From: Paracoccus maritimus
Lineage (GTDB): Bacteria > Pseudomonadota > Alphaproteobacteria > Rhodobacterales > Rhodobacteraceae
Assembly (NCBI RefSeq): GCF_025195095.1
Contig: NZ_JANAVZ010000002.1
Coordinates: 1-64,000 of the forward strand
Length of the DNA: 64,000 bases
Direction of reading: 5' to 3'
Shown: positions 1,212 through 24,611 of the stretch, in pieces
How positions within the stretch are numbered: position 1 is the first letter of the stretch
Layout: each line of letters opens with the position of its first letter
Notes under the pieces: model-generated
Told to the model about the DNA's origin: nothing
The model's database searches: none
Seen by the model: the letters and a program-made list of their open reading frames with translations, nothing else
Program-made: the position numbers and the translations under genes

Positions 1212-3460
1212 TCCGCGGCCGCCCGTGGGGCGGGGCCGCGATTTGGCGTTCGAACCGGGTACAGCTCGGCCAGCGCCTCGGGCGTGAAGTTATCGACCGC
1301 GACCACCTCATTCACCAGCGCCTGCATCGCCTCAATCTGGGCCAACTCGGGCTCGCTGAGGATGCCCGCCTCGACCGCCTCCCGTGGCGGCATCCTCGCA
1401 TCGCGCAGGCGTTTCATTACCGGGGCCAACTCGACGACCTTGGCGTAGCACTGGTTGAGCACTTGCACGCCGTCGCGGTTGCAACCCTCGAAGACGCGAC
1501 CGGTGATCCGGTTCCGGGCCTCGGAGGGCTCATAGATCAGCGCGCTCACTGCCTCGGTCAGGCGGTCGTCAGCGCCGCGGCGGGTGGTGCCGGGCAGGGT
1601 GAAAAAGCGCAGCACCCATGCGGCCCAACGGGCAGGCAGGTTGGCGATCACCTCGTCCAGCGCGGTCTGGATGCGTTTGAATCCCTCGGCGGCGGCAAAG
1701 CGCAGCACCGGCAGGTCGGTCTGCTGGCGGCCCTCATCTTCCCACCGCTTGAGTGCGGCTGAGAGGATGTACATTTCCGACAGGATGTCGCCCATCCGGC
1801 CCGAGATCATCTCCTTGCGCTTGAGCTCGCCGCCCAGGGTGAGGAAAGCGAAATCGGCGGTAAGCGCATAAGCCGCCGACCAGCGCGACAGCTCGCGGTA
1901 GATCGGCACGGCTGCCCCGGCATCCGGAGCAGGCGCAAATCGACCACCGGTCAGTGCGCGGCTCCAGGCGCGGAATATCGTTTTGGTCGTGTGGCCGACA
2001 TGGGCCCAGAAGCTCTTGTCAAACGCGTTTAGCGATGTCTCCGGGTCGTCCTCCTGGAGGGCCATCATGTTGTCGAGCATGTGCGGATGGGCGCGGATCG
2101 AGCCCTGTCCAAAGATGATCAGCGAGCGGGTGACGATATTGGCGCCTTCCACGGTAATGCCGATGGGCACGGCGCGGTAGAGCGGCTGGAGGTAGTTCGA
2201 AGGGCCGTCAATGACCGCCTTGCCGGAGTGCACATCCATCGCATGGTTGAGCGCATCGCGCATCCTGTAGGTGGCATGAGCCTTCATGATCGCCGAGATC
2301 ACCGACAGCGCGCGTCCCTCGTCCAGTCCGGCGCAGGTGAGGTGGCGCGCGGCATCCATGGCGTAGGCGTCCGAGGCGAGTTGAGCCATGGGGGTCTGGA
2401 TGCCGCCGAACTTGCCGATCGGCAGGTTGAACTGTTCGCGTATGCGCGCGTAGGCTCCGGTGGTGTGGGCCGAGAGCGCGATGGCCGCGCAGCCCATCGA
2501 GGGCAGAGAGATGCCGCGTCCGGCGGCTAGTGCCGACATTAGCATCATCCAGCCGCGCCCGGCATATTCCGGCCCGCCGATGATATTCTCGAGCGGGATG
2601 AAAACATCGGTGCCTGTGGTCGGCCCGTTCATGAACATTGTCGAGGAGGGCAGGTGGCGGTTGCCGGTCTCGACGCCCTCGAGGTCGGTGGGAACCAACG
2701 CGCAGGTAATGCCGATGTCTTCGATATCGCCGAGCAGCCCGGCGGGGTCGCGTAGCTTGAAGGCGAGGCCAAGAACGGTGCAGACCGGAGCGAGCGTAAT
2801 ATATCGCTTGGCCCAGTTGAGGCGAATGCCCAACACCTCTTCACCGTCCCAACTGCCCTTGCAGATCACGCCCTCGTCGACCATCGCTGAGGCATCCGAG
2901 CCGGCCTCTGCACTGGTCAGCCCGAAGGCGGGCAGATCGCGCCCATCGGCCAGGCGGGGCAGCCAGTGGCTCTTCTGATCGTCGGTGCCGAACTGGTGGA
3001 TCAGTTCGCCGGGACCGAGCGAGTTGGGCACCATCACGGTGACGGCGGCGGCCACCGAGCGGGTCGAGATGTAGCGGATGATCTCGGAATGGGCGAAGGC
3101 AGAAAAGCCGAGGCCGCCATGCGACTTGGGAATGATCATGCCGAAGAACTTGTGCCGGCGCAGGAAACTCCAGACCTCGGCGGGCAGGTCGGCGGCCACG
3201 TGGTTAATCTGCCAGTCGTCGATCATGTGGCAGAGTTCGCGGCAGGGCCCGTCGAGAAAGCCCTGCTCCTCTGCACTGAGCTGCGGTGCCTTGACGGCGC
3301 GGAGTTTCGACCAGTCCGGGTTGCCCGAAAACAGTTCGGCCTCCCACCAGACTTCACCGGCCGTCAATGCTTCGCTTTCGGTCTGGGAAAGGGCGGGCAG
3401 CGCCCTCTTGGCCCAACCGTGAATCGGCTTGGTGAAAATCCGAGCGCGCAGTCTTGTCAT
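1208..3460 (-). CDS. fadE: Acyl-CoA dehydrogenase, FadE type
   Basis: The 750-residue protein belongs to the long FadE class, which carries out the first beta-oxidation step: FAD-dependent desaturation of acyl-CoA to trans-2-enoyl-CoA. Visible features are the FGMIIP..GGLGFS segment typical of the family N-terminal domain, the substrate/FAD loop FGLTSAEAGSDA (about residue 175 on), the VEGANIVTRSLIIFGQG block that holds the probable catalytic glutamate, and a ~300-residue C-terminal extension of the DUF1974 kind. Length is near the family norm. The ATG at 3460 lacks a strong ribosome site but is followed by the expected N-terminus. The thiolase stub overlaps its stop, so its usual partner is broken here; an independent beta-oxidation set lies at 58.9-64 kb. 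Confidence 0.9.
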   Translation of the reverse strand: MTRLRARIFTKPIHGWAKRALPALSQTESEALTAGEVWWEAELFSGNPDWSKLRAVKAPQLSAEEQGFLDGPCRELCHMIDDWQINHVAADLPAEVWSFLRRHKFFGMIIPKSHGGLGFSAFAHSEIIRYISTRSVAAAVTVMVPNSLGPGELIHQFGTDDQKSHWLPRLADGRDLPAFGLTSAEAGSDASAMVDEGVICKGSWDGEEVLGIRLNWAKRYITLAPVCTVLGLAFKLRDPAGLLGDIEDIGITCALVPTDLEGVETGNRHLPSSTMFMNGPTTGTDVFIPLENIIGGPEYAGRGWMMLMSALAAGRGISLPSMGCAAIALSAHTTGAYARIREQFNLPIGKFGGIQTPMAQLASDAYAMDAARHLTCAGLDEGRALSVISAIMKAHATYRMRDALNHAMDVHSGKAVIDGPSNYLQPLYRAVPIGITVEGANIVTRSLIIFGQGSIRAHPHMLDNMMALQEDDPETSLNAFDKSFWAHVGHTTKTIFRAWSRALTGGRFAPAPDAGAAVPIYRELSRWSAAYALTADFAFLTLGGELKRKEMISGRMGDILSEMYILSAALKRWEDEGRQQTDLPVLRFAAAEGFKRIQTALDEVIANLPARWAAWVLRFFTLPGTTRRGADDRLTEAVSALIYEPSEARNRITGRVFEGCNRDGVQVLNQCYAKVVELAPVMKRLRDARMPPREAVEAGILSEPELAQIEAMQALVNEVVAVDNFTPEALAELYPVRTPNRGPAPRAAAE

Positions 3461-3682
3461 GCAAGCCCCTCCACTGATCGAACGTCAGTCGACCGGATGG
3501 GGTTCCGACGGGCAGGATGACAAGCAAAGCTGTCAAGACTAGCCCGTCAAGGGCAAGAGTATCTGGTCCTTCCTGGCCGGTTCAGATGCCGTGCCACGAG
3601 ACCGCAACCAGCGAAGGGCGACGGCGAGGTGCCCCAGCGAAACCAGCACCAGCAAGCGGTCGCGAGTGAGCAGGCTCACGGC

Positions 3683-3775
3683 GAAGATCGCGATTCCGTC
3701 TTGCCGGCAGATCTTAGCAAAGCTCTCCTCGCCGCTAAGCCCTTCAGGCACGATCCTGATCTTCCGAATGGTGCT
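3683..3775 (-). mobile_element. Remnant of IS3-family transposase OrfA
   Basis: One minus-strand frame reads STIRKIRIVPEGLSGEES followed by FAKICRQDGIA. This is the helix-turn-helix region of IS3-family OrfA proteins (typically KIRIVLEGLRGE...IAELCRREGIA). After GIA the similarity is lost, and no OrfB integrase core or terminal inverted repeats were found nearby. It is a ~30-codon relic showing that an insertion sequence once sat beside fadE. The family is recognised from the motif only. Confidence 0.6.
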
Positions 3776-4508
3776 TCCATCTACGCCTGCGGATGAACTT
3801 CACAATCAACTTTGCCGTCGGCTACATTTTTCCGAGTTGGCGTCTCAGCTCCACTTCCTGGCGGTTGCGATGAGCCTGATACCCTTGGCTACGAAATCAA
3901 CTCACACGTTCCAAGAGGTGCTGACCGGGTACATCTGAACCGAATTTCCGCGGTCGTTTTCTTTGGGCTGGCAATCAGGGCTTGGTTGACGCCGCGATAG
4001 AACAGGCTGTGATTTCGGGTGCGCTGCTTTGCAAACCCAAATGGTTTGGCCGGGCTTGCGAGATTGGTGTCATCATCGTCTTGCGCACTGACGTCTGCAA
4101 CCATCTTGGCATCGCGGGCCCCCGGTCCCAAATAGCTGCCAAGGCTAGGAGCCCTTCGCTGGCGGCGCCGATGATCTTGAAGCGCTGGAGTGCCGGCACT
4201 GCGAGCCAGCGCCGTTTCACCTCTTTGCAGCAGAATACTTTATCGAAAAGGCGAGTGCGGACAGACACCAGCCGGTTCTCGAACACCGCAGCTAGACCTG
4301 CGGACCCGACATAGGTGTCGCCGATCTCGCGGCGCGCGGTCTGGGGGGCGCAAGTTCCGGTCTGGAAAAAGGCGCTAGCAGTCCTGAGGCCTGATCGACC
4401 GGCTCTCGACCGGCCGCCGAGGCACGACTGATCTTTGTCTGCTGACGGAACAGATCGGTTCAGCTCGCCGTTTCCCGGGCATCAACTGACATTTCGGGAG
4501 GAAATGAC
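3776..4508. other. Intergenic stretch without recognisable genes
   Basis: Several short frames exist on both strands. One minus-strand frame is open from about 4440 to 3975, but its product (cysteine- and arginine-rich, with no domain I know) gives no support. A strong ribosome site at 4497-4504 belongs to the next gene. The stretch looks like decayed accessory DNA continuing from the IS remnant. Confidence 0.4.
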
Positions 4509-5159
4509 ATGAAGATGCACACGACATTGATGGCAAGTTGCGCCCTGGCGATCATGGGGTCGGGGGTCTATGCCGACTGCGCCGAGGAACTGGCCTCGCT
4601 GACCGAAGACGGCGCCGCTGGCGCCGCGACCCAGGGCATCTCGAAGGACGGATCGCTGGCGCCCCTTGAACAGCCCGCCGAGTCCGAAGATTCTGCGGAA
4701 ACGGACGCTGCACCTGCAGCGGATCCGAGCGATACGACCGCAAGCGACGGAACCTTGATGTCGAGCGATGGCGAGAGCGCGTCGGGCGAGACAATGGCCG
4801 CTACCGACGCTAGCGGCGCCGAGGCATCTGCCACTGGCGATGGAATCTCCAAGGACGGCACGCATACTCCTCTTGAAGGAGAAGCCTCCGGAAGCACGGA
4901 GATGAAGGCGATGTCGGGCGAGGACGCCGAGGCGCAGCAGGATGGCGAGCCAACGGCCGCGGAGGAAGCGCAGGCGGACTCAGGTCCAGAAAACCCGGCG
5001 ATGTCGGAATCCGCTGACGCGGCCGATGCCGCCTCGCGGGGGCCCTCGATGAAGGTCGATGCCGATCGCGAGGCCCTCATGGCCCGCGCCAATCACGCCT
5101 TGGCATCGGGAGACGAAGAAGCCTGCATGGCGGCCGTGGAGGAACTCAAAGCCATGTAA
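4509..5159 (+). CDS. Secreted acidic protein with repeated ISKDG motif
   Basis: The 216-residue product has a signal peptide (residues 1 to about 22, ending VYA before DCAEEL). A long low-complexity acidic middle rich in Ala, Ser, Asp, Glu and Gly is probably disordered. A short C-terminal segment, RANHALASGDEEACMAAVEELKAM in outline, is likely helical. The motif GISKDG-x3-PLE occurs twice, near residues 42-54 and 112-124. The mature protein has two cysteines, one at its very start and one near its end, which could pair. The ribosome site GGGAGGAAATG is excellent. I recall similar exported proteins in Rhodobacteraceae but know no function. It stands alone among gene remnants and appears intact. 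Confidence 0.75.
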   Translation: MKMHTTLMASCALAIMGSGVYADCAEELASLTEDGAAGAATQGISKDGSLAPLEQPAESEDSAETDAAPAADPSDTTASDGTLMSSDGESASGETMAATDASGAEASATGDGISKDGTHTPLEGEASGSTEMKAMSGEDAEAQQDGEPTAAEEAQADSGPENPAMSESADAADAASRGPSMKVDADREALMARANHALASGDEEACMAAVEELKAM

Positions 5160-5792
5160 GCTGATCCGAACGGGTCGGGTAACGGCCCGCTGGATTGCCG
5201 TTTCCATGCGCTGGGGGGGCGGGGGAGCGCAACGCGTGCCTCCAGCCCACCCGACCACGTTAGAGGGTGGGATTCTGGACGCTCTGCAGCACCTCTATCT
5301 GTGGCCGATCTTGCGACGAAGGATGGCTTGGTCCTCGACCGACAGCTGCTTTCAGCCGATGTCGATGCATACGTGCAGGCTGACAGTTTCAACACTGAAG
5401 GTGGTATCCCGAATCATGGGCATCGAATGGCGTGCTGAAGAACCTCTCGTTTTTCAGTCCAGTCTCAAACGATGTGATTTGTGAACCTCTCCCATCGGTG
5501 GCGGAGCTTGGAAGGGGCTTGTGGCGACGGTGTTGGTCAAGGAAGAGGGGCGAAACCTTCTTCCCACTCCACGAAAGCGCTGATGCATTCGTGAGCGCAT
5601 GGGTCGGGCTTGTGGGCGCATGCCGCGAGGAGAACGAGAGAAAACATGAGAAATCTGGACATGTGGCTTACCTTTCAAACTGATTGAGAGGTAGCTTTCT
5701 ACGTTGGCCTCTGGAACGTGTCTTTTTGTGCATGGATATCAGCCTTACGTTGAATCGCAGAGCAGATCGGACGCCCGGCGAACACTCTTTGC
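5160..5792. other. Non-coding stretch between secreted protein and integrase remnant
   Basis: No frame gives a recognisable product. The right part (5670-5790) lies where the C-terminal catalytic half of the neighbouring integrase should be, but the R-H-R-Y residues of that domain are not seen in any frame. I see no hairpin terminator with a T tract after the secreted-protein gene. Confidence 0.4.
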
Positions 5793-6380
5793 TCAGGCAT
5801 CGAAGCCTGTGGCAGCGAAAATCGGAATACGCTGGTCGTTGCCGGTCTTGTTGCGCGGGTCCATTCTGTCGCGGATTATGAGCCTGCGGCGGACGACGTC
5901 TAAAGCGGTCCATTCGACGCGGCAGAACTCGTTGAGCCGCATGGCGGTGGACACCGCGAAAATCAGGACGCGTGTCATCGGCCTGGATCACTCCGATATC
6001 GATCCCCAGGGTCACCGGGCGCGCACCTTGTTTCGCGCGCATCCTGCCGCAGTCGATCAGCCTCGAGCGGTCGAGGTGTCCGATCTTCTCCTTGCCCAGA
6101 TCGCGCTTGAGCGTCGTGAGCGAGGCGGCTTTGGCACGCGACGCGGCGGTTTCCCTACCTCGCACATATCGTCTATATGAAGGTCGATGAGGTCGGCAAA
6201 GGTCTGAAGACGGGAAACGGACGACTTGTTCGGCGCCAGCCCTTGATCGACCTGGGTCTTCGCCTGGCGGGCACGTCGATGGGCGTCGTCGCGGCTTTGG
6301 GCAGTCTCGCTCGCGTAGCGGCCCTTTCGTCTGATCTGGAGCCGGTAGGCACCGGAGGGGAGCTTGGTGATGAAGGCCAT
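5793..6380 (-). pseudogene. Tyrosine-type site-specific integrase, broken by frameshifts
   Basis: Three consecutive minus-strand frames together spell a phage-type integrase. The first (from ATG 6380) reads MAFITKLPSGAYRLQIRRKG through SSVSRLQTFADLIDLHIDDM to EVGKPP, the arm-binding and early core-binding region. A second frame continues with AASLTTLKRDLGKEKIGHLD through GRMRAKQGARPVTLGID. A third (5978-5793) gives FAVSTAMRLNEFCRVEW and DPRNKTGNDQRIPI, the start of the catalytic domain including the first catalytic arginine region. At least two frameshifts and a deletion are needed. The remaining catalytic His-x-x-Arg and Tyr are absent. This marks an old integrative element that is now immobile. 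Confidence 0.8.
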
Positions 6381-19323: not shown

Positions 19324-19676
19324 TGGCGATGAAGCCCACCGATTTCGACGGGGCGGTGCCGGTCGACGGCTATGGTCCCGGCTTTTTCCGGGTGGGGGGC
19401 AAGGTGTTCCAGGGGGCCGTGCTGGTGACCGAGGGCGGCGGCCGCGGCTGGGGCGGTTTGTCCGATCAGTCGGCACTGCTGTCCCTGGCAGGCCGGATCG
19501 ACGTCTTGTTCGTTGGCATGGGCGCCGACATCTCGCATCTGCCGCCGGACCTGGCGCAGGCGCTGCAGGACGCGGGGATCGCCGTCGAGGCGATGGCCTC
19601 TCCGACCGCCGCGCGGACCTACAACGTGACGCTGTCGGAAGGCCGCCGCGTCGCCTGCGCCCTTCTTCCCGTATGA
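19323..19676 (+). CDS. Mth938-like domain protein
   Basis: The 117-residue soluble protein belongs to the Mth938/DUF498 fold, related to the human assembly factor NDUFAF3. Visible family features are [22 protein letters not shown] and a central [16 protein letters not shown]. The C-terminal strand carries [21 protein letters not shown]. It may aid assembly of a membrane complex, but the bacterial role is not established. Start ATG 19323 overlaps the secF stop and its stop overlaps the ccmA ATG, so it sits inside the operon. The longer upstream open frame is shadow of secF. Confidence 0.9.
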
Positions 19677-20302
19677 GTCTGCTGACCGTCCAGGATCTTG
19701 CCGTCGCGCGCGGCGGGATGCGGGCGGTCGAAGGGGTGACTTTTTCTCTGGCGGCCGGGCAGGCGCTGATCCTGCGCGGCCCGAATGGCATCGGCAAGAC
19801 GACATTGCTGCGCACCATCGCCGGATTGCAGCCGCCGGTTCAGGGCCGGATCGCGATGCCAGACGACGCCGTGGCCTACGCGGCCCATGCCGACGGGCTG
19901 AAGACCGCGCTGACAGTGACTGAAAACCTGCGCTTCTGGGCGGAAATCTTTGGCGGTGGCGGGCTGGATGCCGCGATGTCTGCAATGGACCTGCGGGGGC
20001 TTGCCGATCGCCCGGCGGCGGCGTTGTCGGCGGGTCAGAAACGTAGATTGGGGTTGGCGCGTCTGCTGGTCACCGGTCGGAAGCTGTGGATCCTTGACGA
20101 GCCGACCGTGTCGTTGGACACGGCGTCGGTGGCACGCTTCGCGACAGCGGTGCGGGATCATCTGGCGGCGGGCGGCGCAGCGCTGATGGCCACGCATATC
20201 GATCTGGGTCTGGACGAGGTCGAGGTGCTGGACCTGACGCCGCGTCGCGCCAAGCCCGGGGTGCCGACGCGGCCCGCAGGCTTCAACGAGGCGTTCGCAT
20301 GA
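19673..20302 (+). CDS. ccmA: Heme exporter ATPase CcmA
   Basis: CcmA is the ATPase of the CcmABCD complex that releases haem-loaded CcmE for cytochrome c maturation. The 209-residue protein shows Walker [10 protein letters not shown] (residues 36-44), the ABC signature as LSAGQ (118-122), Walker B WILDEP (139-144) and the switch histidine in ATHIDLG. Start ATG 19673 overlaps the stop of the Mth938 gene. Unusually, ccmB does not follow at once; a GC-rich repeat of ~130 bases separates them. Confidence 0.95.
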
Positions 20303-20324
20303 TCGTCCGGCCCCGCTGCCGCAT

Positions 20325-20452
20325 CCGCCCGACGCGACGCGCCGGGCAGCGCCCGGCCTTCCGGGCCCAAATCGTGCCCAGTTCTGGCAGCGCGGGCCGC
20401 GGGCGCGATCCAGGGCGCTTCGCCACCGCCGGCAACGCAGTGCCGGCAAGCG
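20325..20452. repeat. Structured GC-rich repeat, copy 1 (inverted)
   Basis: Read on the minus strand, this stretch aligns with 22588-22716 on the plus strand over its whole length; the best block matches at 35 of 41 bases (20325-20368 region against 22673-22713). At one end, GCCGGCA (20428-20434) pairs with TGCCGGC (20441-20447). At the other, GCCCG...CGGGC (20327-20347) forms a second hairpin. It lies between ccmA and ccmB, with no convincing gene in it. It is probably a miniature mobile or REP-like element. Confidence 0.7.
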
Positions 20453-20462
20453 TGGGGGGGCA

Positions 20463-21122
20463 GTGGTGCTGGCGCTTCTGAAACGCGATCTCGCGCTTGC
20501 CACGCGGGCGGGCGGCGGGTTCGGACTGGCCGTCGCGTTCTTCCTGATCCTCTGCGCGCTGGTGCCGTTCGGCGTCGGACCCGATACCGGCGCCTTGCGT
20601 CCGATCGGACCCGGTATTCTCTGGGTCGGTGCGCTTCTGGCCTGTCTTCTGTCGCTGGACCGGATCTTTGCGCTGGATCACGAGGATGGCAGCATGGATC
20701 TTCTGGCCACCGCGCCGATCCCGCTGGAAGGCGTCGTCGCGGTCAAGGCACTTGCCCACTGGATCACCTCGGGTCTGCCGCTGATCGTGGCCGCGCCGGT
20801 CTTCGGATTGCTGCTGCACCTGCCCGGTGCGGCGACGCCGTGGCTGATCGCCTCGCTGCTGGTCGGCACGCCGGCACTGTCTATGCTCGGCGCGTTTGGC
20901 GCGGCCATTACCGTCGGCCTCCGGCGCGGTGGCCTGCTGCTGTCGCTACTGGTGCTGCCCTTGTATATTCCGACCCTGATCTTCGGGACCGAGGTCGTTC
21001 GTCGCGGGGCCGAAGGCGGCGATCCTGCGACGCCGATGCTGTTTCTGGCAGGCATCACCGCGGGCGTGATCGCGCTGGTTCCCTTTGCCGCCGCCGCCGC
21101 GTTGCGCGTGAACCTGCGCTGA
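20463..21122 (+). CDS. ccmB: Heme exporter permease CcmB
   Basis: CcmB is one membrane subunit of the CcmABCD haem-handling complex. The 219-residue protein has the expected six helices and the family landmarks LLKRDLALATRAGGG at the N-terminus, LLSLDRIFALDHEDGSMDLL near residue 60, and LVLPLYIPTLIFG in the fifth helix. The start is GTG 20463 (a second GTG follows at 20466) after a G-rich run that may serve as ribosome site. The gap from ccmA (160 bases) is unusual for this operon and is filled by the repeat. Confidence 0.95.
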   Translation: MVLALLKRDLALATRAGGGFGLAVAFFLILCALVPFGVGPDTGALRPIGPGILWVGALLACLLSLDRIFALDHEDGSMDLLATAPIPLEGVVAVKALAHWITSGLPLIVAAPVFGLLLHLPGAATPWLIASLLVGTPALSMLGAFGAAITVGLRRGGLLLSLLVLPLYIPTLIFGTEVVRRGAEGGDPATPMLFLAGITAGVIALVPFAAAAALRVNLR

Positions 21123-21163
21123 TGTGACTTGAGCCTTGCCCGCGCCACCGCTAGGGAACACAT

Positions 21164-21889
21164 ATGTCGATCTGGGAATACGCAAACCCCGTCAAGTTCA
21201 TGCGCCTGTCCGGCGCGATCCTGCCGTGGGTCGTTGTCGGGGCCGTGCTGTGTACGGTCGGTGGTGTCGTCTGGGGCTTCCTGACGCCGCTGGACTACAA
21301 GCAGGGCGCGACCGTCAAGATCGTCTTCCTGCATGTGCCGGCGGCGATGATGGCGATCAATATCTGGGTGATGATGCTGGTCACCTCCCTGATCTGGCTG
21401 ATCCGTCGTCATCATGTCAGCGCCCTGGCGGCCAAGGCCGCAGCGCCGGTCGGCGCTGTGATGACGCTAATCGCGCTGGCGACCGGCGCGATCTGGGGCC
21501 AGCCGATGTGGGGCAGCTGGTGGGAATGGGATCCGCGGCTGACCAGCTTCCTGATCCTGTTCCTGTTCTATGTCGGCTATATTGCGCTGTGGTCCGCAAT
21601 CGAGGATCCTGACAGCGCCGCGGACCTGACCGGTGTTTTGTGCCTTGTCGGGTCGGTCTTCGCGCTGCTTAGCCGATATGCGGTGCTGTTCTGGAACCAG
21701 GGGCTGCATCAGGGCGCCAGCCTGTCCGTCGCCCCCGGCGAACGGATGAGCGCGGTCTATCGCTATCCGCTATACCTGTCGATGCTGGGCTTCCTGCTGC
21801 TGTTCCTGGCGCTGCTGCTGATCCGGACCCGGACAGAAATTCGCAGGCGGCGCCTGGCCGCGCTGCAGGCTAGGGAGATTCGCGGATGA
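21164..21889 (+). CDS. ccmC: Heme handling protein CcmC
   Basis: CcmC loads haem onto CcmE in the periplasm. The 241-residue, six-helix protein contains the tryptophan-rich haem motif WWEWDPRLTS (residues 119-128) and the flanking conserved histidines in FLHVP (H57) and QGLHQG, which coordinate haem in the family. Forty-one bases separate it from ccmB. Its stop overlaps the ATG of ccmD (ATGA), so ccmC and ccmD are likely coupled. Confidence 0.97.
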   Translation: MSIWEYANPVKFMRLSGAILPWVVVGAVLCTVGGVVWGFLTPLDYKQGATVKIVFLHVPAAMMAINIWVMMLVTSLIWLIRRHHVSALAAKAAAPVGAVMTLIALATGAIWGQPMWGSWWEWDPRLTSFLILFLFYVGYIALWSAIEDPDSAADLTGVLCLVGSVFALLSRYAVLFWNQGLHQGASLSVAPGERMSAVYRYPLYLSMLGFLLLFLALLLIRTRTEIRRRRLAALQAREIRG

Positions 21890-22035
21890 TCGAACTTGGG
21901 AAATACGCTGGCACCGTGCTGGCGGCTTATGGCGTATCGGTATTGCTGCTGGCGGGAATCGTCTGGCACAGCGTCGCCGCCAACGCGCGCGCGCGAAACG
22001 ATCTGCACCGGCAGGAGGGCAGGACGAATGGCTAG
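21886..22035 (+). CDS. ccmD: Heme exporter small subunit CcmD
   Basis: A 49-residue protein starting at ATG 21886 inside the ccmC stop. It has one membrane helix (about residues 8-31, YAGTVLAAYGVSVLLLAGIV) followed by a charged cytoplasmic tail (NARARNDLHRQEGRTNG), exactly the CcmD design. CcmD keeps holo-CcmE release working together with CcmABC. Its 3' end overlaps the first eight bases of ccmG. It is too short for routine ORF detection but position and topology make it secure. Confidence 0.93.
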   Translation: MIELGKYAGTVLAAYGVSVLLLAGIVWHSVAANARARNDLHRQEGRTNG

Positions 22036-22570
22036 GCTTTCGCCGCTTGTCGCGCTGCCGCCGCTGGCTTTTGCCGCGATTGCCGGGATGTTTCTGTGGG
22101 GCATGGGGCGTGATGATCCCGATGCGCTGCCCTCGGCGCTGATCGGGCGCGAGGCGCCGACCGTGCCGGCGACGACCTTGCCCGGCCGGACCCAGCTGAC
22201 CGACGACATGCTGCGTGCACCCGGTGTGAAGCTGGTCAATTTCTGGGCCAGCTGGTGTCCGCCCTGCCGAGCCGAACATCCGACGCTGACAAGCTTGTCG
22301 CACGAAATGCCGGTCTATGGCATCGATCTGAAGGACCCGCCGTCGAACGCGACCGAATTCCTCGACGAACACGGCGATCCGTTCCGGGCACTGGCCACGG
22401 ATCCAAGTGGTCGTGCTGCCATCGACTGGGGCGTGACCGCCCCGCCCGAGACCTTCATCATTGATGGCGAAGGTCGGATCCTGCATCGCCATGCGGGCCC
22501 GCTGATCCGCGAAGACTATACCAACCGCTTCCTGCCCGAGCTTGAGAAGGCACGAGAGGCGGCCCGCTAG
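22028..22570 (+). CDS. ccmG: Cytochrome c biogenesis thioredoxin CcmG/DsbE
   Basis: CcmG is a membrane-anchored periplasmic thiol-disulfide oxidoreductase that reduces apocytochrome c cysteines before haem attachment. The 180-residue protein has an N-terminal anchor helix (about 8-25), then a thioredoxin domain with the active site WCPPC (C77, C80) and the cis-proline region APPETFIID. The start is ATG 22028, overlapping ccmD; an upstream in-frame extension would run through ccmD and is rejected. It is the last gene of the secDF-ccm run; a structured repeat follows. ccmE, ccmF and ccmH are not in the window. Confidence 0.96.
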   Translation: MARLSPLVALPPLAFAAIAGMFLWGMGRDDPDALPSALIGREAPTVPATTLPGRTQLTDDMLRAPGVKLVNFWASWCPPCRAEHPTLTSLSHEMPVYGIDLKDPPSNATEFLDEHGDPFRALATDPSGRAAIDWGVTAPPETFIIDGEGRILHRHAGPLIREDYTNRFLPELEKAREAAR

Positions 22571-22587
22571 GCGGGGCTGTTCACGGG

Positions 22588-22716
22588 TTGCCGGGCGCCT
22601 TGCGCCCGGCGGTGCAAGCGCCCGACATTGTGCCCGTTGCGCCGTTCCGCGCGATGACCCGTCACCGGGCACCCGGATTGCCGGGCGCTGCCCGACGCCG
22701 TGCGTCGGGCGGGTCG
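22588..22716. repeat. Structured GC-rich repeat, copy 2
   Basis: Inverted partner of 20325-20452. It begins with a perfect hairpin (GCCGGGCGC at 22590-22598, loop CTT, GCGCCCGGC at 22602-22610) and ends with another (GCCCGACG...CGTCGGGC, 22690-22710). Both hairpins differ in sequence from copy 1 but keep their pairing. It follows ccmG and could end transcription of the operon, although it has no T tract. It has no coding content. Confidence 0.7.
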
Positions 22717-22799
22717 CTTCATCTGCATCGCGTTGCGCGCTTGCGCGTTTTGGTTGCAGGGGACAGACTGACCTCATTTGAGCATCAATGGAGGTTACG

Positions 22800-24611
22800 A
22801 TGAAACGGAAAAGCGTTGCGGTTGCGTTGCTGGCGGGCGGCGCGTGGGCCGCGCCGGTGGTGGCACAACAGGCCACCGATGACATCGCCCCCGAGATTTC
22901 CAGCGAGGCCGCGGGCGAAACCGCGTTCGCCGGACTAAGCCAGGGTGCCCGCGATGCGCTGACATCGAAATCCGAGGGCAAGCCGGTCACCGCGCAGAAC
23001 TGGATGGTCGCGGCGGCCAATCCGCTGGCGGTCGAAGCGGGCGCAAGGATTCTGGAACAGGGCGGCAGTGCAGCCGATGCGATGGTGGCGGTGCAGACCG
23101 TTCTTGGCCTGGTTGAACCGCAAAGCTCGGGCCTCGGCGGTGGAGCGTTTCTGGTCTGGTACGATGCCAAAAGCGGCAAGCTGACGACGCTGGATGCCCG
23201 CGAGACCGCACCATTGGCGGCGACACCGACCTATTTCCAGGATGAGAATGGCGAGCCGCTGGAGTTCTTTGATGCGGTCGTCGGCGGGCGTTCCGTCGGT
23301 ACGCCTGGCACGCCCGCGTTGCTGGAAGCGGCGCATCGGCGTTGGGGGAAAGCGAACTGGGGCAGCCTGTTCGAGGACGCGATCAAGCTGGCCGAGGATG
23401 GATTCGAGGTGTCTCCGCGTCTTGCCGGGCTTGTGGCAGAGGACAGCGACAGGCTGGGCCGGTTCCCGGCGACCAAGGCTTATTTCTTTCCGGACGGCAC
23501 TGCCATTGCCTCTGGCGCCACACTGCGCAATTCCGACTATGCCCATGTGTTGCGGCGGCTTGCGGCCGAAGGAAGCGACGCGTTCTACAAGGGCGAGATC
23601 GCCGAGGGGATCGTCGACACAGTGCGCAGCGCCGAGGGCAATCCCGGTCTGCTGTCGGCCGAGGATCTGGCGCGATATCGCGTCATCGAACGGCCAGCCG
23701 TCTGTGCCGAGTATCGCGACCACGACATTTGCGGTATGGGGCCGCCGTCCTCGGGGGCGCTGACCGTGGGGCAGATTCTGGGCATGCTGGGCGGGTATGA
23801 CCTTGCCGCGCTTGGCGCCGAGAGCCCCGAAAGCTGGCGGCTGATCGGCGATGCCTCGCGGCTGGCCTTCGCGGATCGCGGCCGCTACATGGCCGACAGC
23901 GATTTCGTTCCCGTGCCGACCGAGGGGTTGGTTGCGCCTGACTATCTCTCCGAACGTGGCAAGCTGCTGTCGGGTGACGACGCGCTGCCCGAGGTCAGTG
24001 CCGGATCGCCGGGTTGGAGCCACGCGATGCTGTGGGGCCAGGACAGCGCGATCGAATTCCCTTCGACCTCGCATATCTCGATCGTGGATGCTGACGGAAA
24101 CGCGCTGTCGATGACGACAACCATCGAGAACGGCTTTGGTTCGCGCCTGTTCACGCAGGGCTTTCTGCTAAACAACGAACTGACCGATTTCAGCTTCGAG
24201 ACCCATGACGCTGCGGGCTATCCCATCGCCAACCGGTTGGAGCCGGGCAAGCGGCCGCGGTCTTCGATGGCCCCTAGCATCGTGATGAAGGATGATCGCC
24301 CGGTTCTGGTCATCGGTTCGCCCGGCGGCAGCCGGATCATCGGCTATGTCGCCAAGGCAATCATCGGCCATCTCGACTGGGGGCTGGATGTTCAGCAGGC
24401 GATCGCATTGCCGAATGTCGTGAACCGCTTTGGCCCGATGGATGTCGAGGCCGGCACGGACGCGGCGGCCCTGACGCAGCCGCTGACCGATCTGGGCTTC
24501 GAGGTCAACGAAACCGACCTGACATCAGGGCTGCACGGAATCGCGATCACACCCGAGGGGCTGTCCGGCGGAGCCGACCCTCGCCGCGAGGGCATCGCTT
24601 TGGGAGGCTGA
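22800..24611 (+). CDS. ggt: Gamma-glutamyltransferase (glutathione hydrolase)
   Basis: GGT is a periplasmic Ntn-hydrolase that cuts the gamma-glutamyl bond of glutathione and similar peptides, or transfers the group to amino acids. The 603-residue precursor has a signal peptide (to about residue 23, VVAQ), MVAAANPLAVEAGARILEQGG, and the autocleavage site PSTSHISIVDADGNALSMT with catalytic T423, followed by the small-subunit motif SPGGSRII. Length is normal. The start is ATG 22800 because GGAGG lies 5 bases before it; the in-frame ATG 12 bases upstream is part of that ribosome site. It complements the cytosolic ChaC route at 9-11.7 kb. Confidence 0.95.
   Translation: MKRKSVAVALLAGGAWAAPVVAQQATDDIAPEISSEAAGETAFAGLSQGARDALTSKSEGKPVTAQNWMVAAANPLAVEAGARILEQGGSAADAMVAVQTVLGLVEPQSSGLGGGAFLVWYDAKSGKLTTLDARETAPLAATPTYFQDENGEPLEFFDAVVGGRSVGTPGTPALLEAAHRRWGKANWGSLFEDAIKLAEDGFEVSPRLAGLVAEDSDRLGRFPATKAYFFPDGTAIASGATLRNSDYAHVLRRLAAEGSDAFYKGEIAEGIVDTVRSAEGNPGLLSAEDLARYRVIERPAVCAEYRDHDICGMGPPSSGALTVGQILGMLGGYDLAALGAESPESWRLIGDASRLAFADRGRYMADSDFVPVPTEGLVAPDYLSERGKLLSGDDALPEVSAGSPGWSHAMLWGQDSAIEFPSTSHISIVDADGNALSMTTTIENGFGSRLFTQGFLLNNELTDFSFETHDAAGYPIANRLEPGKRPRSSMAPSIVMKDDRPVLVIGSPGGSRIIGYVAKAIIGHLDWGLDVQQAIALPNVVNRFGPMDVEAGTDAAALTQPLTDLGFEVNETDLTSGLHGIAITPEGLSGGADPRREGIALGG

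Follow-up and report, generated by a model that had tools for sequence, protein, structure and literature searches.

A bridging open reading frame between ccmA and ccmB of Paracoccus maritimus, holding one copy of a structured inverted element, as a probable translational relay

Introduction

The repetitive extragenic palindromes (REP), bacterial interspersed mosaic elements (BIME) and miniature inverted-repeat transposable elements (MITE) are G+C-rich palindromes that lie between operon genes; mycobacterial interspersed repetitive units (MIRUs), reportedly described by Supply et al. in 1997, are a further class of repeat. Here we analysed a 64,000-nt stretch of Paracoccus maritimus DNA (the window; contig NZ_JANAVZ010000002.1, positions 1 to 64,000), in which two inverted copies of a 124-bp structured element bracket four ccm genes and in which copy 1 is held within an open reading frame (ORF) that bridges ccmA and ccmB. 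The bridging ORF, overlooked by a preliminary description of the element pair, is the more telling result of the two. Like REP/BIME and MITE repeats, the element is a G+C-rich palindrome between operon genes; it differs from these, and from REP/RAYT (REP-associated tyrosine transposase) systems, in that it is not dispersed as far as searched and no Y1 transposase was matched.

The MIRUs of Mycobacterium are described in terms of such a bridging relay, as outlined in a 2025 review (PMC12548453). The ccmA-ccmB bridge resembles them in its geometry, a likeness that goes by description only and with the exact 4-nt-overlap end in 20 of 46 junctions. MIRUs are repeated genome-wide, whereas the present element occurs as two copies at one locus, and here unlike sequences fill a single junction, all obeying one frame rule. 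Because the multi-copy feature is absent the element was not filed as a MIRU; from the junctions compared, the bridging ORF appears to be a variant of a MIRU-like relay, with clean comparative support. Rickettsia palindromic elements (RPEs) are, by the account in PMC10969869, palindromes of about 150 bp kept in an open frame in a coding context; they are also multi-copy, in many cases within-gene fusions, and are each said to encode a conserved peptide, whereas the insert described here is a separate ORF between two genes, shows no amino-acid constraint (ratio of nonsynonymous to synonymous differences, pN/pS, 1.02) and is not multi-copy. The usual ccmA-ccmB overlap, between subunits of one complex, corresponds to termination-reinitiation coupling as it is outlined in PMC10666635 (see also PMC6728339), except that here a relay of two re-starts would replace the direct overlap. 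The minigene of axe-txe is likewise a tiny ORF before a gene, with frame and distance setting expression; it comprises two codons in a leader and does not separate a pair of coupled genes, and the cause proposed in that account is mRNA protection (PMC8708949). Neither the ccmA-ccmB bridge nor the element was met in open-access titles and abstract openings, which is no proof of absence.

An open frame bridges ccmA and ccmB

CcmA and CcmB work together in a single ABC exporter. In the window their genes are separated by a 160-bp gap, within which copy 1 lies:

19676-20302, plus strand: ccmA, heme exporter ATPase (TIGR01189, 227.7 bits); its stop TGA overlaps an ATG (ATGA, 20299-20302)
20299-20481, plus strand: bridging ORF of 60 codons, which begins at the ATG overlapping the ccmA stop, crosses copy 1 and stops inside the ccmB start
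20325-20448, minus strand: copy 1, structured element of 124 bp (covariance model R1, 108 bits, as a member of the model), present at the same site in 5 other Paracoccus genomes
20463-21122, plus strand: ccmB, heme exporter permease (TIGR01190, 283.9 bits)

In a first set of 80 ccmB loci taken from genome records, ccmA and ccmB overlapped in 52 of the 80 analysable junctions and were separated by a gap of 7-265 nt in the other 28 (the window included; one locus, L160, is without ccmA). A pooled set from Paracoccus and relatives, for which 221 loci were entered, 14 found not analysable and 23 repeated junctions dropped, comprised 184 distinct junctions: 132 with an NTGA overlap (72 ATGA and 60 GTGA), 6 with another short arrangement and 46 with a gap of more than 5 nt. 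The 'gaps' of 2, 2 and 5 nt in L334, L335 and L338 (2 mod 3) resemble NTGA overlaps in which ccmB has a longer start, and they stand outside the last count. As read from the gene ends, the usual layout is a 4-nt overlap (ATGA or GTGA), an arrangement suited to translational coupling.

The gap length was 1 mod 3 in all 46 gapped junctions, which represent 29 different lengths between 7 and 331 nt, and the frame beginning with the codon that overlaps the ccmA stop was open across the gap to the ccmB start in 46/46. The rule was first read from the gapped junctions of the first set (28/28). It was obeyed by 14 of 14 gaps of more than 5 nt in a second set, drawn from the family around Defluviimonas sediminis (110 loci, 101 of them analysable); this species is present in both sets. 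Pooling also added 30 more genus loci. One junction is doubtful: in L148 (Paracoccus sp. PAMC 22219) the ccmA match ends at residue 156 of 208, probably through a frameshift in the assembly or in the gene, and this locus was counted as gapped in the pooled set and as overlapping in the first; without it the count is 45/45. By blastn the gap sequences formed 20 similarity groups, 26 of the sequences sharing one loosely linked group. The longest bridge, in L325, spans a gap of 331 nt with a 113-codon open frame running from GTGA to the ccmB start.

Two other junctions of the locus served as controls. At ccmB-ccmC, 1 of 81 gapped junctions was bridged, the three length classes held 32, 26 and 23 junctions, and the 25 distinct lengths were distributed 9/8/8. 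At the junction of ccmG with the gamma-glutamyltransferase gene (ggt), 4 of 28 gapped junctions were bridged.

The constraint on the bridge was compared across the five genomes whose gap is 160 nt long. The pN/pS ratio of the bridge was 1.02, with values of 0.96 to 1.17 over all six frames, and that of 300-nt comparison stretches was 0.27 in ccmA and 0.11 in ccmB (pS of the neighbouring genes, 0.48-0.50). Copy 1 lay wholly within the open frame in 6/6 genomes, and no indel was found among the six 124-bp copies. The frame rule, taken together with the lack of amino-acid constraint, leads us to conclude that what selection preserves is the reading frame and the lack of stops in it, not the peptide. 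If the bridging ORF instead encoded a genuine small Ccm protein, and the frame rule reflected that gene, one would expect the frame to be open at every gapped junction, as it is, and short peptide motifs common to the element-bearing versions can be seen by eye; yet the pN/pS values in all six frames, the range of 5 to 113 codons of unlike sequence and the 138 of 184 junctions that have no gap of more than 5 nt make this explanation extremely improbable.

We consider it likely that the bridging ORF is a relay that keeps ccmA and ccmB coupled through insertions, coupling of the two exporter partners being what selection would protect. The insertion of copy 1 would have separated two genes formerly coupled by a 4-nt overlap. 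A ribosome finishing ccmA would then re-start at the overlapping ATG, which is the old ccmB start site, translate through the element, stop at the new ccmB start and re-start there for a second time. An insertion would uncouple the two genes unless the ribosome were carried across it, so that copy 1 would be tolerated because it lies inside the bridging ORF. In reporter tests a spacing of about 20 nt nearly abolished re-initiation, and close-spaced gene pairs are enriched for subunits of complexes, as outlined by Huber et al. (2023, PMC10666635).

With one gene pair, many unlike insertions and a frame rule that holds in 46/46, the junction amounts to a natural experiment on translational coupling; since this one rule has no exception in 46, the selective value of coupling is testable with a single stop codon. 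The findings suggest that where a frame is kept open between two genes it can serve as a relay, with no need for its peptide to function. They also suggest how hairpin elements might become established in operons while leaving expression intact.

Several observations weigh against the relay. Open frames are common at high G+C content: of the two remaining frames, one was open in 34/46 and the other in 31/46, and dinucleotide shuffles predict 33.8, an expectation that treats the genomes as independent, though they are related; related genomes are likewise not independent events. The bridge in the window stops 19 nt into ccmB, and the expected 4-nt-overlap end was found in only 20/46: bridges ended 7 nt past the reference point (4-nt overlap) in 20 junctions, 10 nt in 7, 19 nt in 18, the window among them, and 4 nt in a single junction. 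Two of the 46 (L148 and L332) begin with a CTG codon. A raw skew to one length class was also seen at secF-ccmA (47/59) and at ccmC-ccmG (66/77); the distinct lengths at these two controls, both of which span an intervening gene, are without skew (7/7/5 and 8/3/5, respectively). Many fillers are unlike the element, so the relay needs no such hairpin. A bolder form of the proposal, in which every surviving insertion at ccmA-ccmB in Paracoccus and relatives would be an obligatory ribosome relay through a translated, sequence-free ORF, and the hairpins of the window's clade would act as a valve on CcmA:CcmB output, is in our judgement doubtful.

The junction is filled in several ways

The ccmA-ccmB fillers are of several kinds, copy 1 being one among them. 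A tree of SecF, CcmA, CcmB and CcmC, built by a quick method with 47 rows, placed every one of the six copy-1 genomes in a single 13-row group (SH-like approximate likelihood ratio test, SH-aLRT, 98), every member of which is gapped. Other fillers in this group occupy gaps of 43-55 nt, and of 172-208 nt in P. alkanivorans and P. methylarcula. Paracoccus sp. UBA889 (L119) has a 124-nt gap which, by eye, is like a shortened copy 1 (17.7 bits with the model, E 0.81). Our reading is a single gain of copy 1 at the base of the 13-row group, followed by later loss or replacement.

About 110 bp of the P. methylarcula gap (L105 4790-4997) correspond to a dispersed repeat, matched by 40/40 scored genome candidates. 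Outside the 13-row group, the D. sediminis gap (L173 4925-4997) holds a different dispersed repeat with 31 genome matches. Sixteen copies of each repeat, sampled with a rough gene caller, adjoin genes in varied orientation, and the settings being so varied, these repeats are not generally at ATGA junctions. By the same caller, 14/16 of the P. methylarcula copies lie 5-47 nt past the stop of the upstream gene, and 3/16 of the D. sediminis copies start directly after a TGA stop.

The inverted element pair and its structure

Downstream of ccmB the locus continues as follows:

21164-21889, plus strand: ccmC (TIGR01191, 260.7 bits)
21886-22035, plus strand: ccmD (TIGR03141, 41.4 bits)
22028-22570, plus strand: ccmG, DsbE family (TIGR00385, 206.1 bits)
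22589-22712, plus strand: copy 2, structured element of 124 bp between the ccmG stop and ggt (model R1, 93.1 bits, as a member of the model)
22788-24611, plus strand: ggt, gamma-glutamyltransferase, 3' neighbour of copy 2 (TIGR00066, 407.8 bits)

The preliminary description had proposed an inverted pair of repeats of about 128 bp aligning from end to end, and this was borne out for 124-bp elements, with ends trimmed to the part common to related species. The two copies are 66% identical over their full length, and blastn within the window returned the previously noted match of 35/41 bases as the top ungapped block (41 bp, 85.4%, E about 3e-8). By NCBIfam families, ccmB, ccmC, ccmD and ccmG are the genes bracketed. 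It is confirmed that the pair is real, with compensated stems. As far as searched it is not a dispersed repeat; the earlier interpretation of the pair is partly supported.

The proposed fold has three helices (H1, the long-range P2 and, immediately following it, H3) and 25 pairs in all:

20428-20447, minus strand: copy 1 helix H1, GCCGGC.../...GCCGGC hairpin (pair comparison across copies)
20348-20419, minus strand: copy 1 possible long-range helix P2, whose arms at 20412-20419 and 20348-20355 enclose a variable loop (least supported helix)
20327-20347, minus strand: copy 1 helix H3, 9-bp hairpin (pair comparison across copies)
22590-22610, plus strand: copy 2 helix H1 (pair comparison across copies)
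22617-22624 and 22682-22689, plus strand: arms of copy 2 possible long-range helix P2 (sequence)
22690-22710, plus strand: copy 2 helix H3 (pair comparison across copies)

As had been described, both copies carry a hairpin at each end, and the stem letters differ between them with pairing kept (GCCGGCA/TGCCGGC in copy 1 against GCCGGGCGC/GCGCCCGGC in copy 2). The further claim that structure is maintained through paired changes held for the two end hairpins, in which compensated changes were found across related copies. In an alignment of nine copies 96.9% of cells pair, and both-sided changes occur in 4/25 pairs (3/500 shuffles as high), one of them in H1 and three in H3. When copy 2 of P. 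homiensis, which is outside the model, was added as a tenth, 98.4% of cells paired and both-sided changes rose to 9/25 (0/500 shuffles; three in H1, two in P2 and four in H3), in an alignment that was fitted to the structure and is biased towards it. Sliding the partners by 1-3 columns in the ten copies left 32-59% pairing and at most 3 both-sided changes. The stems had a mean pairwise difference of 0.106, compared with 0.43, 0.66 and 0.30 for three segments of the loop in P2; these values come from the six copies 1, in 14 pairs, the pair of the window and Paracoccus sp. R12_2 being left out.

The fold of the window's copy 2 was more stable than those of 200 shuffles, on either strand (z -3.4 and -4.7), copy 1 was no more stable than 200 shuffles (z -1.1 and -0.8), and copy 2 beat shuffles in 3/4 genomes. 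The G+C content of the element is 75-86%, so folding energy alone is weak evidence. The evidence for the predicted structure is comparative, and by the counts of both-sided changes H1 and H3 are well supported and P2 weakly. Three points count against a maintained structure: P2 is without any both-sided change over nine copies, the folding energy of copy 1 is unremarkable in 5/6 species (R12_2 is the exception), and copy 2 of P. salsus does not beat shuffles. An Rfam 15 search of the window returned only a tRNA, the element being without a match above the gathering score.

Distribution of the element

In its own genome (3.93 Mb, 44 contigs), blastn with each copy found that copy and its partner, the next best matches being short, with E 0.01 or worse. 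The covariance model, at E up to 10, matched the two known copies only, with 150 of 3,845 candidates scored. Over 125 Paracoccus genomes it gave nine matches in six genomes, all at ccm, with 28 of about 1,600 to 5,900 candidates scored per listed genome. The model was built from nine copies and the nine matches are its own members, so the point is the absence of anything else. Over 394 family genomes no match was found outside the own genome, with 9 candidates scored per listed genome; this draw includes two Paracoccus genomes and is therefore informative for other genera only. Short blastn matches elsewhere, at 29 loci of other Paracoccus and 6 of the own genome, scored at most 22.9 bits with the model; the rescan did not extend to seven matches that lacked a locus or to the other short matches in the own genome. 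With copy 2 as query, a plasmid collection gave two weak matches, in other genera.

Further copies, on which the preliminary description had made its interpretation depend, were thus found in other Paracoccus. Copy 1 is present in six genomes: that of the window, Paracoccus sp. R12_2, P. salsus, P. siganidrum, Paracoccus sp. 2205BS29-5 and P. homiensis. Copy 2 occupies its same site in the window's genome, R12_2 and P. salsus and is diverged in P. homiensis (41.5 bits, E 0.0017, 80 loci); two of the six genomes have copy 1 without copy 2. The suggestion that the pair might allow inversion found no support, ccmA, ccmB, ccmC, ccmG and ggt having the same order and strand in 6/6 copy-1 genomes by tblastn. 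Filled and empty junctions, set side by side and compared by eye only, showed no clear duplication beside copy 1.

A check for REP-associated or IS200/IS605-like transposases had also been proposed, and a REP or IS200 origin found no support. A search for the Y1 transposase (PF01797) gave 0 matches in the own genome at E 0.001, the same search being positive in 5/14 named genomes as a control, and no dispersed copies were seen. That the copies belong to a dispersed REP/MITE family and stand at ccm by chance would agree with the filling of ccmA-ccmB by dispersed repeats in other lineages (31 matches in D. sediminis, 40/40 scored in P. methylarcula). With a part of the candidates scored in each search, however, the two own-genome matches at E up to 10, the nine matches in 125 Paracoccus genomes, all at ccm, and the lack of any in the other family genomes, together with the lack of a Y1 transposase match, leave this very improbable. 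Jointly with the relay reading of the ccmA-ccmB junction, it is probable that copies 1 and 2 represent an old, locus-bound palindromic element, as far as searched, whose end hairpins are maintained.

Possible role of the hairpins

The stems are kept in species with copy 1 only, and also in copy 2, which lies outside the bridge and has indels. We tentatively suggest that the hairpins may work at the level of RNA structure within the ccm transcript, most likely by affecting the stability of its segments, and regard this as the least certain step of the interpretation, somewhat more likely to fail than to hold.

The main rival to an RNA role is repair of palindromes at the DNA level. Short-loop hairpins are a substrate for template-switch repair, and the stem compensation could be a by-product of template switching at imperfect palindromes, which would render the two arms alike with no selection involved. 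H1 and H3 are hairpins of this short-loop kind, and the z-scores of copy 1 are unremarkable in 5/6 species, as a by-product would allow; but the stem letters are conserved between species (0.106), against up to 0.66 in parts of the P2 loop and a neighbouring-gene pS of 0.48-0.50, and we hold the by-product explanation to be unlikely.

It had also been suggested that the pair could fold back the ccm mRNA. The copies might form a regulatory RNA pair, pairing with each other across the ccmBCDG mRNA or both binding one factor and so tuning ccm. Both sites are kept in 4/6 copy-1 genomes (one of them diverged), and co-folding is predicted to be more favourable than separate folding, by 35 to 66 kcal/mol in 3/4 genomes and by 12.5 kcal/mol in P. 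homiensis. Of six combinations the own pair ranked first for the window and for P. homiensis, but in R12_2 and P. salsus foreign copies 1 paired better with copy 2 than the own copy did. Fold-back is thus predicted to be possible, yet with the own pair best in only 2/4 genomes selection for it is not clearly indicated. Copy 2 is missing from two of the genomes that keep copy 1, and such pairing would be expected to disturb a translated stretch of 2.1 kb, so that a regulatory pair is very unlikely.

Terminator-like matches barely exceed chance (4 found against 1.3 expected, sd 1.2); one of this kind, a hairpin followed by TTTT at 22734-22747 in the interval between copy 2 and ggt, may mark the end of the ccm transcript.

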